Origin: Candidatus Omnitrophota bacterium
GTDB lineage: Bacteria > Hinthialibacterota > Hinthialibacteria > Hinthialibacterales > Hinthialibacteraceae
Assembly (NCBI GenBank): GCA_013177805.1
Contig: JABLXU010000014.1
Location: 1 to 64,000 of the forward strand
DNA length: 64,000 bases
Direction of reading: 5' to 3'
Shown here: positions 26,170 through 33,080 of the stretch, piece after piece
Position numbering within the stretch: the stretch's first letter is position 1
Layout: each line of letters starts with the position of its first letter
The notes under the pieces: generated by a model
Told to the model about the DNA's origin: nothing
Seen by the model: only the letters and a program-made list of their open reading frames with translations
Database searches by the model: none
Position numbers and translations under genes: made by a program

Positions 26170-26916
26170 TTACTTGTCAAACAACGACCGGAACGCCTGA
26201 GCCAGGGTTTCCCGGTTGACTTTGGCAATGGCGGTGGTCAAAGGAATCCCCCTGGGGCATACCCGGACGCAATTCTGTGAATTGCCGCATTCATGAATGC
26301 CTCCCTCCCCCATGAGGATTTCCAGCCGCTCTTCCCGGATGAACCGGGCGGTAGGATTTTGATTGAACAGGTAAACTTGCCCGATGGCCGCCGGTCCCAC
26401 GAAAGGATTTTCGGAGTTATACTGCGGACAGGCATCAACACAGCAGCCGCATGTCATACACCGGGAAAAAATATACATCTGCTCTTGAAAATTGGGGGAA
26501 ACGCGGGGGCCGGATCCCAACTCGTGGGTGCCGTCGATATCGATCCACGCGTGGATTTTCTGCAATTCCTTAAACATACGGCCCCGGTTGACCACCAGAT
26601 CCCGTATGACGGGGAACTTGCGCATGGGCTCCAGGATGATCGGTTGTTCCAGTTGATCCACCAGCGCGGTGCAGGATTGGCGGACCTGCCCGTTGATCAC
26701 CATGGTACAGGCTCCGCATACCTCCTCCAAGCAACTGCAATCCCATGACACCGGCGTAGTTTTATGCCCTACGGCATTGACCGGATTGCGCCGGATTTCG
26801 TTCAGGAGGACGATGACATTCATATTGGGCTGATAGGGAAGGCGGAAATCTTCCCAGTAGGGTTCCGAGAAACGGTCTTTTTGACGTTTGATTCGGAGTT
26901 CAACCATTTTTACCAT
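26170..26916 (-). CDS. sdhB: Succinate dehydrogenase/fumarate reductase iron-sulfur subunit
   Basis: This subunit passes electrons from the flavin of SdhA to quinone through three iron-sulfur centres. In the 248-residue protein the 2Fe-2S ligands are CSCLEEVCGAC plus the later C in RQSCTAL. The 4Fe-4S motif is CMTCGCCVDACP and the 3Fe-4S part is CGNSQNCVRVCPRGIP. The general look, including NVIVLLNEIRRNPV, is of the Bacillus/epsilonproteobacterial type. ATG 26916 has GAGGT nine bases upstream. It is third in sdhC-sdhA-sdhB, 75 bases after sdhA. Confidence 0.96.
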   Translation of the reverse strand: MVKMVELRIKRQKDRFSEPYWEDFRLPYQPNMNVIVLLNEIRRNPVNAVGHKTTPVSWDCSCLEEVCGACTMVINGQVRQSCTALVDQLEQPIILEPMRKFPVIRDLVVNRGRMFKELQKIHAWIDIDGTHELGSGPRVSPNFQEQMYIFSRCMTCGCCVDACPQYNSENPFVGPAAIGQVYLFNQNPTARFIREERLEILMGEGGIHECGNSQNCVRVCPRGIPLTTAIAKVNRETLAQAFRSLFDK

Positions 26917-26991
26917 AATCCGTTAACCTCATTGCCGATAGTCCTTGGGGCAGGGCACAAGTGACGATTCTTTGACTCCGGTTGGCATGGC

Positions 26992-28863
26992 TCAATCATA
27001 ACGGCGTGGAACCGGCTCGATCAGGCTGGTATCCACCGGCTCGTACGTGATTTGCGGGCCGTCTTCCGTCCATTGGGCGATAGTCGTTTTCAACCATTTT
27101 CGGTTGTTTTCTTTCCACTTCGCCAAGAATTGCTGGTATTCCGGCGACTTGATATCCTTCGGTTGTTCGAGATGAAAATCAGGTTTGTAATGGCTGCCGC
27201 GGCACTCATCCCGCAATAAGGCCCCTTTGACGATCACTTTGGCTAATTCGATCATGTTCCATAACTGGTTGATGAACAAAACCGACTGATTGCGGGTGCG
27301 TGAGAGGTCGAGTGAATGGCAATTTCTCCACCGTTCGGTCATGCCGTTCAGTTGTTCCAAGGTCTGCTTGAGATCGGCATTGTTCCGGACAATACTGCAG
27401 TTCCGGATCATCAATTCCCCCAGCTCGTGATGCAATTCAAAAGGATTGACCGTTCCTTCCATCGCCCGGATCGCGTCGAAGCGCTCCCGCCATTTGGTTT
27501 CTTCTTCTTCGTAAATCCGGCTAGACACATCAGCCGAGGAGCGTTTCATGGATTGGGTAAATTGTATGGCGGCCGGTCCGGTGATCGTGCCGGCAAACAA
27601 GCAGGAAAGGAGCGCGTTGGCGCCCAAGCGGTTGGCGCCGTGATACTGGTATTCGCACTCGCCAGCCGCATACAGGCCGGGGATGTTGGTCATGTGATTG
27701 CGCGGGCTGCTCCGGTCCAGGAGGCCGTCCGCGGTGCGCTCATAATCCACCCACAAACCGCCCATGCTGTAATGCACAGCGGGGAAAATTTTCATGGGCA
27801 CGTCGCGCGGATCTTCACCCTGGAACTTTTCGTAGATCTCCATGATCCCTGCCAGCTTGCGGTTGAGCTCTTCCCGCGGAATGTGGGTCAGATCCAGATA
27901 GACCATATTCCCGCCGCCGACTCCGTAGCCTTGGTTTATGCAAATGTCGTAGATTTCCTGCGCGGCGATATCCCGCGGTACCAGGTTCCCGTATAAAGGA
28001 TGTTTTTCCTCCAGAAAGTACCAGCGTTCGTTTTCAGGGATATCCCGCGGATCCCGCGGATCATTCTTCTGGCGGGGCACCCAGATGCGTCCCCCCTCGC
28101 CCCGGGCCGATTCCGACATGAGCCGGAGTTTGTCGTATCCGGGAATGGCGGTGGGGTGGATTTGAATGAACTCCCCGTTCGCGTATTTCACCCCCTGTTG
28201 GTAGGCTGAAGAAGCGGCCGATCCCGTGTTGATCACCGAGTTGGTGGAACGGCCGTAAATCATACCCGGCCCGCCCGTGGCCAACACCACGGCGTCGGCG
28301 CGGAAGGCTCGGATTTCCAGAGTATCCTGATCCACGGCGACGATGCCCCGGCAAACGCCGTCACCATCCTTGACCATGCCCAGGTACTCCCATGTTTCAT
28401 ATTTGTGGACCAGCCCTTGCACTTCCCGCCGCCGGACTTGTTCATCCAGGGCGTAGAGCAGCTGTTGGCCGGTGGTGGCCCCCGCGTAAGCCGTGCGATG
28501 ATAAAGGGTTCCACCGAAACGCCGGAAATCGATCAACCCTTCCGTCGTGCGGTTGAAGGTCACGCCCATGCGGTCCATGAGGTAGATAATCGCGGGCGCA
28601 TTATAGCACATATCCTTACACAACGGCTGATGGGCCAGGAAATCCCCCCCTTTCACCGTGTCGTAAAAATGAATGTCCGGCGAATCCCCTTCGCCCTTGG
28701 TGTTGACCGCGCCGTTGATTCCCCCCTGGGCGCACACGGAATGGGAACGTTTGACGGGAACCACCGAAAACAAATCCACGTGATGCCCCGCTTCCGCCAT
28801 CTTGATCACGGTCATCAATCCCGCCAGCCCCCCGCCGACTACGATAAATCGAATTTTCGCCAT
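26992..28863 (-). CDS. sdhA: Succinate dehydrogenase/fumarate reductase flavoprotein subunit
   Basis: This catalytic subunit oxidises succinate to fumarate (or the reverse) with covalently bound FAD. The 623-residue protein starts with the FAD-binding motif VVGGGLAGLMTVIKMAEAG. HSVCAQGGINGAVN carries the His expected to hold the flavin. HRTAYAGATTGQQLLYAL, IHPTAIPG and HYSMGGLWVDY form the active-site region, and AAGECEYQYHGANRLGANALLSCLFAG is the conserved FAD-contact loop. It lies 33 bases after sdhC with GAGGT as ribosome site. Confidence 0.97.
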   Translation of the reverse strand: MAKIRFIVVGGGLAGLMTVIKMAEAGHHVDLFSVVPVKRSHSVCAQGGINGAVNTKGEGDSPDIHFYDTVKGGDFLAHQPLCKDMCYNAPAIIYLMDRMGVTFNRTTEGLIDFRRFGGTLYHRTAYAGATTGQQLLYALDEQVRRREVQGLVHKYETWEYLGMVKDGDGVCRGIVAVDQDTLEIRAFRADAVVLATGGPGMIYGRSTNSVINTGSAASSAYQQGVKYANGEFIQIHPTAIPGYDKLRLMSESARGEGGRIWVPRQKNDPRDPRDIPENERWYFLEEKHPLYGNLVPRDIAAQEIYDICINQGYGVGGGNMVYLDLTHIPREELNRKLAGIMEIYEKFQGEDPRDVPMKIFPAVHYSMGGLWVDYERTADGLLDRSSPRNHMTNIPGLYAAGECEYQYHGANRLGANALLSCLFAGTITGPAAIQFTQSMKRSSADVSSRIYEEEETKWRERFDAIRAMEGTVNPFELHHELGELMIRNCSIVRNNADLKQTLEQLNGMTERWRNCHSLDLSRTRNQSVLFINQLWNMIELAKVIVKGALLRDECRGSHYKPDFHLEQPKDIKSPEYQQFLAKWKENNRKWLKTTIAQWTEDGPQITYEPVDTSLIEPVPRRYD

Positions 28864-28896
28864 GTTGACCTCTTTCTGGAATCGATGGGTTCCGCC

Positions 28897-29541
28897 TTAC
28901 CGGGTGAACGCGTAGAGGGACGTGATGAAAAAGACATACACACCCAGGCCAATAAGCGCGCAGATATATCCGGAATATTTCTGGGCCCGTTCCCCGACGG
29001 TGATCCCCCACTTGATCAGAAAATTCCATATCCCATTGGCAAAGTGGAACGTCGCGGCGGATACGCCCACAAAATAAAACAGCACATGCCATGTCTCCCG
29101 GAAATATTCCCGGATATAGCCGGTCGTGATATGCTCCAGATCCGTCTTGAACGTCCATTCAATCCGTAATTTGTAAACATGGTATAGAATGAAAATAATC
29201 GCGACGATCCCTGACCACCGCTGCAATGAATAGAGCCAATTCCGCAAGTATCCGTAATGCTGGACATTGCTTAAGCCAAAAATCCAGATATAGATTCCAA
29301 TCACCGCGTGCAAAAGAATCGGAACGCCGATGAAGAAGATTTCGATAAAGAGCAAGAAGGGAATCGTGCCTAAAAATTCGACATGTTCGTCGAAACGCTC
29401 TGGACCGTAAAAATAGACCAATCCGTTGTTAAAGGCATGTTGAACAAAAAAAACTCCGATGGGAATGATCCCTAGCAAAGATTGCAGTCTCCGCAACAGA
29501 AATGGGGTTTCCTGCGACAACGAAATTTTTTCTTCACTCAT
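28897..29541 (-). CDS. sdhC: Succinate dehydrogenase cytochrome b558-type membrane subunit
   Basis: A single large membrane anchor (214 residues, five hydrophobic segments) as in Bacillus subtilis SdhC and Wolinella FrdC. It binds two hemes and reduces menaquinone. Candidate heme ligands are the His residues in VQHAFNN, LLHAVIGIYI, IFILYHVYKL and ATFHFANGIWNF. The first gene of the operon (CAB order), it has a GGGGG-containing ribosome site. The single-anchor form predicts menaquinone rather than ubiquinone; direction (succinate oxidation or fumarate reduction) cannot be told from sequence. Confidence 0.92.
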   Translation of the reverse strand: MSEEKISLSQETPFLLRRLQSLLGIIPIGVFFVQHAFNNGLVYFYGPERFDEHVEFLGTIPFLLFIEIFFIGVPILLHAVIGIYIWIFGLSNVQHYGYLRNWLYSLQRWSGIVAIIFILYHVYKLRIEWTFKTDLEHITTGYIREYFRETWHVLFYFVGVSAATFHFANGIWNFLIKWGITVGERAQKYSGYICALIGLGVYVFFITSLYAFTR

Positions 29542-29716
29542 GCTGTGCCCCCGGATTCTTCGTTGGGTTGGAATGGGTGATAATCACTCGATGGTTGTTG
29601 AATAAAATTTTCATTTTTTCCATTCTAAATGGTTAAAACGGGATCGATTAGTATACTCAGGAAATCAATTTAATAAAGATTCTTCTTCTATATGCCCATG
29701 GGCAAGGGAATAACTG

Positions 29717-31039
29717 ATGGAACCTATTTTTTTTCAAGGCCATATCGTCACCCCTGGGACGGTTCTCCATAATCATTCAATTACAATTCAAGATGGGAAA
29801 ATTAAAGCAATTTCCCCTGCCGGTGATGTCACCTGGCGGAATGATCTCCCCTACATTCTTCCTGGTTTCCGTGATCAACACGTGCACGACCTGATCGGAC
29901 AAGAAAAAGCCCGCTCCCATGCCCCCGAAGCGCTGGTGGACTGCTTCCGCGAGGCCACGGCGGCGCTCGGACGGCATGGTGTGACCCGGGTTTGGATCGC
30001 CACCTTTGGCGATTCACTCGCCACCTTGGAACGCTACGGCCAAGGCGCCCGGCTATGGATGGATCATCCCGCCAACGGGCAGGCCGGAGCCCAGTTGGAA
30101 GGCATCCACATCGAGGGAACATTTCTCAATGAGGAATGCCGTGGCGCTCAACCCGCCGAACATATCCTGATCCCGACACGGGACGATTGCCGGACGGCAC
30201 TTAACAAACTGAAGAATACCGGCTCGGTCAAGTTAGTCAACATCGTTCCCGATTATGGCGAGGAATCCCTCCAGGTGATCCGTTACGCCCGTCACCTGGG
30301 ACTAACCGTAGGCGCCGGACACTTAAATTCTTCAGCAGCCTTACTGCGCCGGGCATATGAGGAGAGCGGCCTGCAGTTCATGATCCATTTCACCAATGGA
30401 CCCACGGGGCAATCATTCAAGCCATTCGGCGGGGGAGGAGCCTTCGAAGGGGCGCTGCAACTCCCGATATATAAGGAACTGATCCTTGACCTCATCCATG
30501 TCGACGAGCGCTATATTTTGGATATTATCAAACAAACCGAAGACCGGTGGGGGGTGGATAAGATCGTCGCGGTGACCGATGCCCTCTACGCCAATCTGGA
30601 CAATTTGCCCCGGGGAAAATTTACCATCGGTTCGACTCTTGCCGGCGTGGATCCCACCGGCCGGTATCTGCAGACCCTGGCCTACCGGCGGCCTGATGGA
30701 ACCGAGATCCCCGCGCCGCCCAACACCCTCTGCGGCAGCATTCTTACGATGGACAAAGCCTTCACCAACTTGGTGAATCTGTTTACCCGTCCCTGCGAGG
30801 GACACTGGTACCGGCACGAACCGCTTTCTCTGGACGATGCGCTGGTCAAAGCCGCCCGTCTTTGCGCCACCAATCAAGCCATACTGGTGGGGGACGATTT
30901 GCGCGCGGGGAGTATTCAGGAAGGTCTGGCGGCGGATCTTGTCATCGGTACCATTGAGCGCCGCGAGCATGAATATGCCTTGCAGATCGGCCAAGTCATG
31001 GTGGAAGGCCATGTGATTTGGGGAAGTATGAACCACTGA
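29717..31039 (+). CDS. NagA-like N-acetylglucosamine-6-phosphate deacetylase family amidohydrolase
   Basis: A 440-residue metal-dependent amidohydrolase. The marks are LPGFRDQHVHDLIG (HxH site), LEGIHIEGTFLNEECRGAQ (metal-binding Glu of the NagA group), VGAGHLNSSAALLRRAYE, MIHFTNGPTG, VTDALYANLDNLPRGKF (catalytic Asp) and the closing DDLRAGSIQEGLAADLV. NagA removes acetate from GlcNAc-6-phosphate to give the NagB substrate, so it probably works with the nagB gene nine kilobases away. It differs from classic NagA in HIEGTFL instead of HLEGPFL and in a region around residues 315-345 with GTEIPAPPNT, so a related acetyl-sugar substrate is possible. AAGGGA lies eight bases before ATG. Confidence 0.83.
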   Translation: MEPIFFQGHIVTPGTVLHNHSITIQDGKIKAISPAGDVTWRNDLPYILPGFRDQHVHDLIGQEKARSHAPEALVDCFREATAALGRHGVTRVWIATFGDSLATLERYGQGARLWMDHPANGQAGAQLEGIHIEGTFLNEECRGAQPAEHILIPTRDDCRTALNKLKNTGSVKLVNIVPDYGEESLQVIRYARHLGLTVGAGHLNSSAALLRRAYEESGLQFMIHFTNGPTGQSFKPFGGGGAFEGALQLPIYKELILDLIHVDERYILDIIKQTEDRWGVDKIVAVTDALYANLDNLPRGKFTIGSTLAGVDPTGRYLQTLAYRRPDGTEIPAPPNTLCGSILTMDKAFTNLVNLFTRPCEGHWYRHEPLSLDDALVKAARLCATNQAILVGDDLRAGSIQEGLAADLVIGTIERREHEYALQIGQVMVEGHVIWGSMNH

Positions 31040-31110
31040 TAAAATCCCCCGGCGTGCGATCATGCGATTTCGCCAAGGTACTTAACTTTTTCCGATTGGC
31101 GGATTGGCCT

Positions 31111-31147
31111 ATCCTGAATGTATCCTTATTTAGTCAACATTCAGGAT
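31111..31147 (+). promoter_or_regulatory. Perfect 11-bp inverted repeat upstream of the Cys-repeat gene (candidate operator)
   Basis: ATCCTGAATGT (31111-31121) and ACATTCAGGAT (31137-31147) are exact inverted copies separated by 15 bases. The second arm ends 32 bases before the start codon of the exported Cys-repeat protein. The arms and spacing could bind a dimeric regulator, or form a stem in the leader RNA. No T run follows, so it is not an obvious terminator of the nagA-like gene. Confidence 0.6.
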
Positions 31148-31179
31148 TTCATTCTCATATCCAGAAGGAGACATAGGCC

Positions 31180-31863
31180 ATGAAGAAATTATGGTTATCC
31201 TCATTGTTAGTTGTATGCAGTCTTGGTATTGCATTGCCCGTGATTTCCTCGGAAACTATCGCCCCATCAGGGAATAGCCTGAACGAGGCGGTGAAAGCCG
31301 AACTCCAGCAAGCCAAAGAACGTCAACCGCAAGCCGTTTGTCCCATCAGCGGAAAGCCGGTGTCCGGGAAAGACAGCACTACCTATTTGGGGTATGAAAT
31401 CAAGACCTGCTGTCCGAACTGCATCGACACAGTGAAGAAAGATCCCTTGGCCGCCATTCAAGCCCTCCGCAAGAAAGGCCAAGAACCAGCCTTGGCAGAC
31501 AACATGAAACTCCAGACAGTCTGCCCTATCTCCGGCAAGCCGGTCACGACGGAACTATATGCCATCAAGAATAACATCCTGGTGCAATTCTGCTGCCCTA
31601 ATTGCCCAGCCGCCTTCCAAAAAGATCCCAAGGGAACTGTGGAAAAGATGTTGGGTCAAGGCATTGCCCCAATTTTGCTGACCTTCGAGCAGAAAGAATG
31701 CCCAGTATCCCATGAACCTGTTTCCGGCAACAGCTCGGTGGTGCATGAGGGCAAAGTCATCGAACTGTGCTGCGACGCTTGCAAGGCGCAGGTCCTCGAG
31801 AATCCCGAAAAAGTGATCCAGGATCTGGCGGATCAAGGCATCGTTCTGGCGCGGGAGAAATAG
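31180..31863 (+). CDS. Exported protein with three C-x22-CC-x2-C repeats (YHS/TRASH-like)
   Basis: A 227-residue protein with a Sec signal peptide (KKLWLSSLLVVCSLGIALPV). After it come three copies of a ~60-residue module. Each starts with CP(I/V)SxxPV and, exactly 22 residues later, has CCxxC. The first Cys are at residues 54, 115 and 174, and the paired Cys at 77-78, 138-139 and 197-198. The Cys pattern resembles YHS and TRASH metal-binding modules, which handle copper, iron or zinc. Metal binding here is inference. A helix with (K/E)(D/N)P follows each CCxxC. AGAAGGAGA is the ribosome site. The gene is monocistronic: an inverted repeat precedes it and a strong terminator follows. It could also be a redox or thiol protein. 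Confidence 0.8.
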   Translation: MKKLWLSSLLVVCSLGIALPVISSETIAPSGNSLNEAVKAELQQAKERQPQAVCPISGKPVSGKDSTTYLGYEIKTCCPNCIDTVKKDPLAAIQALRKKGQEPALADNMKLQTVCPISGKPVTTELYAIKNNILVQFCCPNCPAAFQKDPKGTVEKMLGQGIAPILLTFEQKECPVSHEPVSGNSSVVHEGKVIELCCDACKAQVLENPEKVIQDLADQGIVLAREK

Positions 31864-31921
31864 CCGCGAGCGTTCGATGACCTATTGCGGCTGTAAATCT
31901 TTGTCATTCCGAACCGTTTAT

Positions 31922-31964
31922 AAAGGAGGCAGGGGTATTCCACTTGCCTCCTTTTCATTTTTTT
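31922..31964. terminator. Strong intrinsic terminator, bidirectional
   Basis: AAAGGAGGCA (31922-31931) and TGCCTCCTTT (31945-31954) pair perfectly over ten bases, followed by TCATTTTTTT on the plus strand. The A run of the left arm gives a T run for the minus strand. It separates the convergent Cys-repeat gene and the aminotransferase gene. Confidence 0.88.
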
Positions 31965-31976
31965 GAGAACGTCCCC

Positions 31977-33080
31977 TCAATCCCCTGCCATTTTTTTGAG
32001 GATTTCAATCCCCTTGTCGATGGTTTCGTCACTGGCGGCGTAGGAGATGCGGAAATGCGTGTTGCGCTCGGAAAACGAATTGCCTGGGACGATCAGCAAG
32101 TTGTTCTGGATCGCCCGTTTGACGAAGGCTTCGCCATCACCGCCGGGAGCCTCGGGGAAGATATAAAATGCGCCGCTGGGCTTCACCACGTTGTAGAAGG
32201 GCTTGAGCCCCTGGTAGATGCGGTCCCGCTTTTGGCGGTACTCCGCCCGGTGTGCGCTCATGTCGTAATCGAGGGCCGCCAGGCCGGCGTATTGGGCGAA
32301 ACTGGGCGCACAGACGAACGAATACATCTGGATGTTGATCATCGCCGCGATGATCTCCCGGGGGCCGTACGCGTACCCCAGCCGCCAGCCGGTCATGGCT
32401 GAGGATTTGGAGAAACCCGAAAGAATCATGCAATAGGGATAATATTCGGCCGGCGAATGATGTTCTCCCTCGTAGAGAAAACTCTCGTAGATTTCGTCGG
32501 TGATGATCAGCAGGCCGTGCTTATCGGCCACCGCCGCCACCGCCTGTAAGGTCTCGGCCGGATACACTTGGCCCGTGGGATTACACGGACTGTTGATCAG
32601 GATGGCCTTAGTGCGCGGGGTGACGAGGCGGGCGATCTTCTCCGGATCAAGTTGGAAATCCGGGTAGGTATCCACGTACACCGGCTTCGCGTGAATGAAA
32701 TTGCAGAGATGCTTATACATGACGAAATAAGGATCGGGGATGATGATCTCGTCTCCCTCGTCGAGAATGGCCAGAAAAGTGAGTAAGATCCCGCCGGAGA
32801 CGCCGGAGGTGACCATCACGTCGCCCTCCATGTTTAACCCCTTGTTCCAGTACAGTTGTTTGATTTTTTCCCGCAGTTCGGTGAGACCGGCAGTCTGCGT
32901 GTAGGTGTTCTTGCCCGTGCGGATAGCCTCGATCGCGGCCTCTTTGATCTCACCGGGAATGTCGAAATGCGGCTGGCCGATGGAGAGGTTGACTGGATTC
33001 TTTAAATCCGCCGCCAGGGCGAAAACCTTGCGGATGCCGGAAGAATCGATGCGGGTAGTGCGTTGCGCGAGTGGAATCAT
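31977..33080 (-). CDS. Class I/II PLP-dependent aminotransferase (aspartate aminotransferase-like)
   Basis: A 367-residue fold-type I aminotransferase. Visible are LSIGQPHFDIP, YTQTAGLTELREKI, the NSPCNPTGQVYP motif, ITDEIYESFLYEG, the PLP-lysine motif SGFSKSSAMTGWRLGYAYG and the carboxylate-binding Arg in NTHFRISYA. The group interconverts aspartate, glutamate or aromatic amino acids and their keto acids; the exact substrate is not readable. GAGG lies seven bases before ATG. It follows trpS by 167 bases on the same strand. Confidence 0.9.
   Translation of the reverse strand: MIPLAQRTTRIDSSGIRKVFALAADLKNPVNLSIGQPHFDIPGEIKEAAIEAIRTGKNTYTQTAGLTELREKIKQLYWNKGLNMEGDVMVTSGVSGGILLTFLAILDEGDEIIIPDPYFVMYKHLCNFIHAKPVYVDTYPDFQLDPEKIARLVTPRTKAILINSPCNPTGQVYPAETLQAVAAVADKHGLLIITDEIYESFLYEGEHHSPAEYYPYCMILSGFSKSSAMTGWRLGYAYGPREIIAAMINIQMYSFVCAPSFAQYAGLAALDYDMSAHRAEYRQKRDRIYQGLKPFYNVVKPSGAFYIFPEAPGGDGEAFVKRAIQNNLLIVPGNSFSERNTHFRISYAASDETIDKGIEILKKMAGD

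Follow-up and report, generated by a model that had tools for sequence, protein, structure and literature searches.

The window analysed here is a stretch of 64,000 nucleotides (nt), positions 1 to 64,000 of contig JABLXU010000014.1 (GenBank assembly GCA_013177805.1, forward strand) from a Candidatus Omnitrophota bacterium of the GTDB phylum Hinthialibacterota. Near its middle lies a gene for a likely exported protein of 227 amino acids (aa), whose three cysteine modules resemble the YHS and TRASH domains. The gene and its parts, with the basis of each assignment (ORF, open reading frame; pLDDT, predicted local distance difference test), are as follows.

31180–31863, plus strand: three-module YHS/TRASH-like protein, likely exported, 227 aa (ORF, homologues, structure model, motif rule)
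31180–31251, plus strand: likely Sec signal segment, about residues 1–24 (sequence, hydrophobicity, low pLDDT)
31339–31422, plus strand: ligand span of module 1, C54...C77 C78...C81 (cysteine motif positions)
31522–31605, plus strand: ligand span of module 2, C115...C138 C139...C142 (cysteine motif positions)
31699–31782, plus strand: ligand span of module 3, C174...C197 C198...C201 (cysteine motif positions)

The first cysteine and the CC pair stand at residues 54/77, 115/138 and 174/197, with a gap of 22 residues in each module, exactly as the original prediction had stated. The modules start with CPISGKP, CPISGKP and CPVSHEP, have CCPNC, CCPNC and CCDAC as their CxxxC parts, and together hold 12 of the 13 cysteines of the protein; the remaining one, C13, lies within the signal segment. 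At the N-terminus, two lysines are followed by the peak of hydrophobicity: the most hydrophobic 15-residue stretch starts at residue 9 (mean Kyte-Doolittle value 2.5), and those starting after residue 30 reach at most 1.03. This is consistent with a Sec signal, which was called from sequence and hydrophobicity only, and pLDDT is low over the same segment of the structure model. Export of the protein, and with it the earlier placement outside the cytoplasm, can be regarded as likely.

A signal peptide followed by three modules had been presented as an unfamiliar form, and the 22-residue gap in all copies as unusually regular. Neither point held. The proposed genome search for other triple-module proteins was productive: by the motif rule, 33 of the 45 homologues have three modules, most of the 25 judged by eye have a signal-like start, and 22 residues is the most frequent spacing (64 of 125 modules among the 45 homologues). 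A unique form is thus rejected. In the present analysis, we define an exported three-module CPxSGKP/CCxxC family by a signal-like segment and three sets of a first Cys, 21–31 residues and CCxxC, all of which the window protein has. Of 98 genomes from the kin of the window and nearby lineages, 16 gave a match at E ≤ 0.001, and some family match is present in 9 of the 14 genomes covered for its phylum (its own genome being counted both times). The closest homologue of the window protein is P0002 (82%), and close orthologues (42–49%) are found in genomes G001, G004 and G005. Among the literature matches listed, judged by title and abstract opening, an exported tandem YHS/TRASH family is not described, and a search of solved structures by sequence with the window protein gave no match.

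Within the family, the cysteine set is nearly invariant, while the remaining sequence varies (25% mean column identity). Two motif rules applied to the same 45 proteins gave 125 and 126 modules. In the set of 126, the fourth motif position is Ser in 103 modules, Met in 15, Cys in 1 and another residue in 7, and the second Cys of the CC pair is kept in 122; it should be noted that this count required the first Cys and is biased against modules retaining Asp. Same-numbered modules of the window protein and six relatives share a mean identity of 58, 58 and 45%, above the 24–40% found between different modules of the same protein. A recent triplication is therefore rejected, and the triplication predates these genera.

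Several relatives depart from the layout of the window protein. A second three-module clade within the taxonomic family of the window, with His-rich C-terminal tails, is encoded at L043 (4443–5327), L044 (7496–8341) and L045 (1885–2700). In genome G012, of the same phylum, locus L042 (3834–10196, plus strand) encodes a protein of 2120 aa that combines HEAT repeats and two CxxCH haem-like motifs with nine YHS/TRASH-like modules, which are arranged as three repeated triplets at the C-terminus. At L039 (4141–6052, minus strand, G009), the gene for a relative that has two modules and starts in a signal-like way lies 97 bp upstream of a same-strand gene with DsbD_TM and thioredoxin-like parts, and a Prismane-family (hybrid-cluster) gene is close to it. 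A DsbD-like neighbour as a general feature was rejected, since the G009 DsbD matched, weakly, three of 726 neighbour ORFs.

The modules were compared with YHS and TRASH by hidden Markov model search. The window protein itself stays below the gathering cut-offs, with 12.2 bits against 30.3 for YHS (PF04945) and 24.2 bits against 27 for TRASH (PF24273); its highest-scoring Pfam families are the TRASH ones, PF24273 and PF08394. Its kinship with these domains comes through the homologues: at E ≤ 0.001, 30 of 36 relatives match PF04945 and 33 of 36 match PF24273. In the structure model (mean pLDDT 89.6), each module consists of a hairpin and helices. The fold matches are modest and concern mainly module 3; those listed include toluene monooxygenase, in part taken as YHS, as well as INO80- and SWR1-complex chains, which are zinc-finger subunits. 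The YHS/TRASH-like nature of the modules is thus supported by the homologues, and the fold points tentatively the same way.

As in the YHS domain (PF04945), a hairpin–helix layout is predicted, and a CxxxC, a trait of YHS and TRASH, closes the hairpin in all three window modules. Unlike the YHS domain, they lack DPxCG before the hairpin; in the window's family, the first Asp of this motif is replaced by Cys and the next Cys by Ser. With TRASH (PF24273/PF08394) the modules share the retained first Cys and CxxxC. L24e and pumps or enzymes are given as carriers of TRASH-type domains in PMC4626032, whereas the window protein has three tandem modules after the signal segment and no other domain. 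The same genome (G000) also encodes, on contig C18, a heavy-metal P-type ATPase (L050, 5739–8102) with an HMBD and an N-terminal standard YHS domain, the latter scoring above the PF04945 cut-off. The family pattern is C-P-x-S-G-K ... C-C-x-x-C versus D-P-V-C-G-M ... C-C-x-x-C in this ATPase. We conclude that the family is of the YHS/TRASH type with an altered ligand set, and that it is real but not unique.

A wider scan covered one genome per species (84,980 species) plus a planctomycete set, and the best 80 of 377 related stretches were kept. ORFs were picked by length, which in GC-rich loci occasionally put an antisense ORF in the central place; among the 80 loci, 27 chosen ORFs carry no module, and six loci had none chosen. 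A CusC-, CusB- or CusA-like gene lies inside the fetched stretch in 15 of the 80 loci, and the resistance–nodulation–division (RND) pump itself in 12; a match in L135 to the module ORF itself is not counted. In 13 of these 15, the nearest such gene shares the strand of the module gene and starts 0.1–1.3 kb downstream of it. L158 has the module gene flanked by a gene for an outer membrane efflux protein (OEP) and one for a membrane fusion protein (MFP), and in L151 the efflux genes are more than 3 kb away on the opposite strand. Pfam annotation of one representative each confirmed OEP, HlyD_D23 with HMBD, and ACR_tran. The 15 loci come from Phycisphaerae and other Planctomycetota, with one Nitrospira and one Gemmatimonadales record. 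The remaining 65 have no pump gene in the fetched stretch, in some cases perhaps owing to a short contig. Among 18 further loci, three from the window's phylum have an RND pump; relative to the module gene, it lies downstream in L048, upstream in L052 and about 5 kb away on the other strand in L049. Of the same 18, L043 has an OEP gene only and L044 an MFP gene only. The second three-module clade in G004 has MFP and RND genes 4–6 kb away. At L162 (10714–11523), a YHS domain fused to a DUF2231 membrane domain is encoded, with the module gene on one side and the efflux genes on the other, and similar neighbouring ORFs form a cluster across five loci.

According to a tree of 50 proteins, which took in 9 of the 15 pump-linked loci, all nine pump-linked proteins fall in a 17-row clade (support 100/96), and the window protein belongs to a separate 8-row clade (97/98). 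OEP, MFP and RND genes had no match among the 51 window ORFs of at least 100 aa or in the three located orthologue loci (L035, L036 and L037). No CusA of the close type (at least 55% identity with the L165 pump) was found in the window's genome, where the best match reached 43%.

Since some relatives adjoin metal-efflux genes, metal handling is the best reading of the family. We suggest that the window protein, once exported, traps or carries soft metal with its three YHS/TRASH-like modules, and put the probability of this at roughly 0.6. The explanation rests on the ORF, the near-invariant cysteine sets, the confident model, the sister clade beside CusC/B/A-type genes and the window clade beside sdhCAB, which is described below. 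Through its C...CC..C set, each module would hold a single soft metal ion, most likely copper(I) and possibly zinc or another thiophilic metal, and the three-site protein would trap or carry metal outside the cytoplasm. For the sister clade, the efflux pump would be the partner that takes over the metal. Export, metal binding, the identity of the metal and its hand-over to a partner are what we infer. Two observations favour copper: the sister clade accompanies Cus-type pumps, and a YHS domain rendered an adenylyl cyclase copper-responsive, as PMC4626032 reports.

A known counterpart is CusF of the CusCFBA system. It is a periplasmic copper chaperone, built as a small beta barrel with Met/His/Trp ligands. 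The sister-clade protein is likewise small, likely exported and adjoining a CusCBA-like pump, so it may act in a CusF-like manner. The window protein differs from a CusF-type chaperone in its predicted hairpin and helices, and its clade is not pump-linked.

The same modules could be read as structural zinc knuckles, the protein then serving as a scaffold or redox buffer outside the cytoplasm and taking no part in metal traffic. Treble-clef-like folds often carry structural zinc, and the fold matches to INO80 and SWR1 chains are in keeping with this. However, the heavy-metal efflux genes beside the sister clade, and cysteines held near-invariant in an otherwise variable sequence, argue against it, and we consider it unlikely.

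Upstream of the module gene lie a succinate dehydrogenase (SDH) operon and one further gene.

26170–26916, minus strand: sdhB, iron-sulphur subunit
26992–28863, minus strand: sdhA, Bacillus-type flavoprotein (TIGR01811 above cut-off)
28897–29541, minus strand: sdhC, cytochrome b subunit of succinate dehydrogenase (orthologues too adjoin an sdh operon)
29717–31039, plus strand: NagA-like amidohydrolase, between sdhC and the module gene (best match TIGR00221, under cut-off)

The closest named match of the window SdhC (72%) is a protein of Candidatus Hinthialibacter, which belongs to Candidatus Hinthialibacterota. In four of four located genomes (the window's, G001, G004 and G005, representing four genera of one family), the gene of the window clade adjoins sdhCAB and is transcribed away from it; the count does not include clade members P0002–P0005, which are unplaced on contigs. 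In the window, one NagA-like gene separates the two. Around the gene in G004 (14.6 kb) and G001 (19.9 kb), the only matches to window ORFs (at least 100 aa, E ≤ 1e-8) are the module gene, sdhC, sdhA and sdhB. G005 has an SDH of another type (SdhA 36–39% identical, SdhC unmatched), yet the module gene keeps the same location. In three genomes (window 26170–31039, L083 and L084), a NagA-like gene flanks the sdh operon on its sdhC side. In G003, one ORF lies between the NagA-like gene and sdhC, and the SDH is of another type, as if the operon had been swapped in place.

This conserved position would suit an accessory factor of SDH or of the nearby respiratory chain, which delivers metal or protects iron-sulphur or haem sites. 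Several points weigh on the other side. In G002 and G003, sdhC lies near the NagA-like gene without a window-clade protein, so the linkage may partly be old local gene order, and the same SDH type occurs with no match to the protein in G002, G006, G007 and G008. Among the 80 wider loci, queried with one SdhA reference and with the SdhB and SdhC references of both types, sdh is within 6 kb in L160 only, apparently G004's own contig, although some contigs are short. The catalytic and iron-sulphur subunits of SDH face the cytoplasm, and an exported protein would be on the opposite side of the membrane. Given the genomes that have sdh without the clade protein, the linkage is a lead and not proof, and an SDH accessory role seems decidedly improbable. 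That cytochrome oxidase subunit II (PF00116) tracks the protein was also rejected: it is present in 9 of 14 genomes, being absent from G005, which has the protein, and present in G002 and G003, which have no clade protein.

To return to the soft-metal trap or carrier, in the window clade it would probably be a buffer or carrier expressed alongside respiration, shielding other sites from loose copper or passing copper on. In a bolder version, a three-site thiol metal carrier, kin of the proteins that assist efflux pumps, would have been recruited to respiration; lying back to back with succinate dehydrogenase, it would protect or provide, from the outer side of the membrane, the metals that aerobic respiration uses. 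This version strikes us as quite doubtful.

Two non-coding features flank the module gene.

31111–31147, no strand: inverted repeat, 11-bp arms, spacer 15, single copy in the genome (repeat search, shuffles)
about 31922–31954, plus strand: terminator-like hairpin followed by a T-rich run (−22.0 kcal/mol)

Both the perfect 11-bp repeat (arms 31111–31121 and 31137–31147) and the strong terminator had been described correctly. The statement that the gene stands alone held only in part: a same-strand NagA-like gene ends 140 nt upstream, and a scan of 30900–32100 found neither a same-strand terminator nor a sigma-70-like promoter between them, so the module gene may share its transcript. When the 140-nt upstream region was shuffled 3000 times with dinucleotides preserved, 3 shuffles gave a repeat with arms of at least 11 and a loop of 3–40; in the window as a whole there are three such repeats, versus 0, 1, 1, 2, 1 and 1 in six shuffles. 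Copies of the motif (up to 3 mismatches) were sought in six family genomes, and the sole site was 31111–31147 in the window's own. In front of the three located orthologues, there is at best a repeat with 7-bp arms, or none at all; the upstream DNA of P0002 (82%) was not part of this comparison. The repeat as a conserved control element is therefore rejected, lack of conservation at orthologues being the outcome that the original prediction had named as refuting it; a control role, if any, would be restricted to this genus. Rfam at gathering scores over the window, and PADLOC, gave no match. That the repeat is an operator or mRNA hairpin making this one gene metal-responsive, for which the rarity of such arms among shuffles and the single genomic copy could be cited, is very improbable given its absence from orthologues and from five same-family genomes and a window-wide repeat number barely above chance. 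Of the regulated metal- or redox-handling unit in the original prediction, the metal theme is thus likely, in view of the relatives beside efflux genes, and regulation by the repeat is unsupported.

According to PMC4626032, YHS and TRASH modules are tied to metal traffic by name, and few have been tested. A widespread, likely exported family made of three modules alone, with altered ligands and one branch next to heavy-metal efflux genes, offers a clear-cut case in which to test the function of these modules. The sdh-linked branch poses a further question, namely why an extracytoplasmic metal protein would stay beside succinate dehydrogenase.
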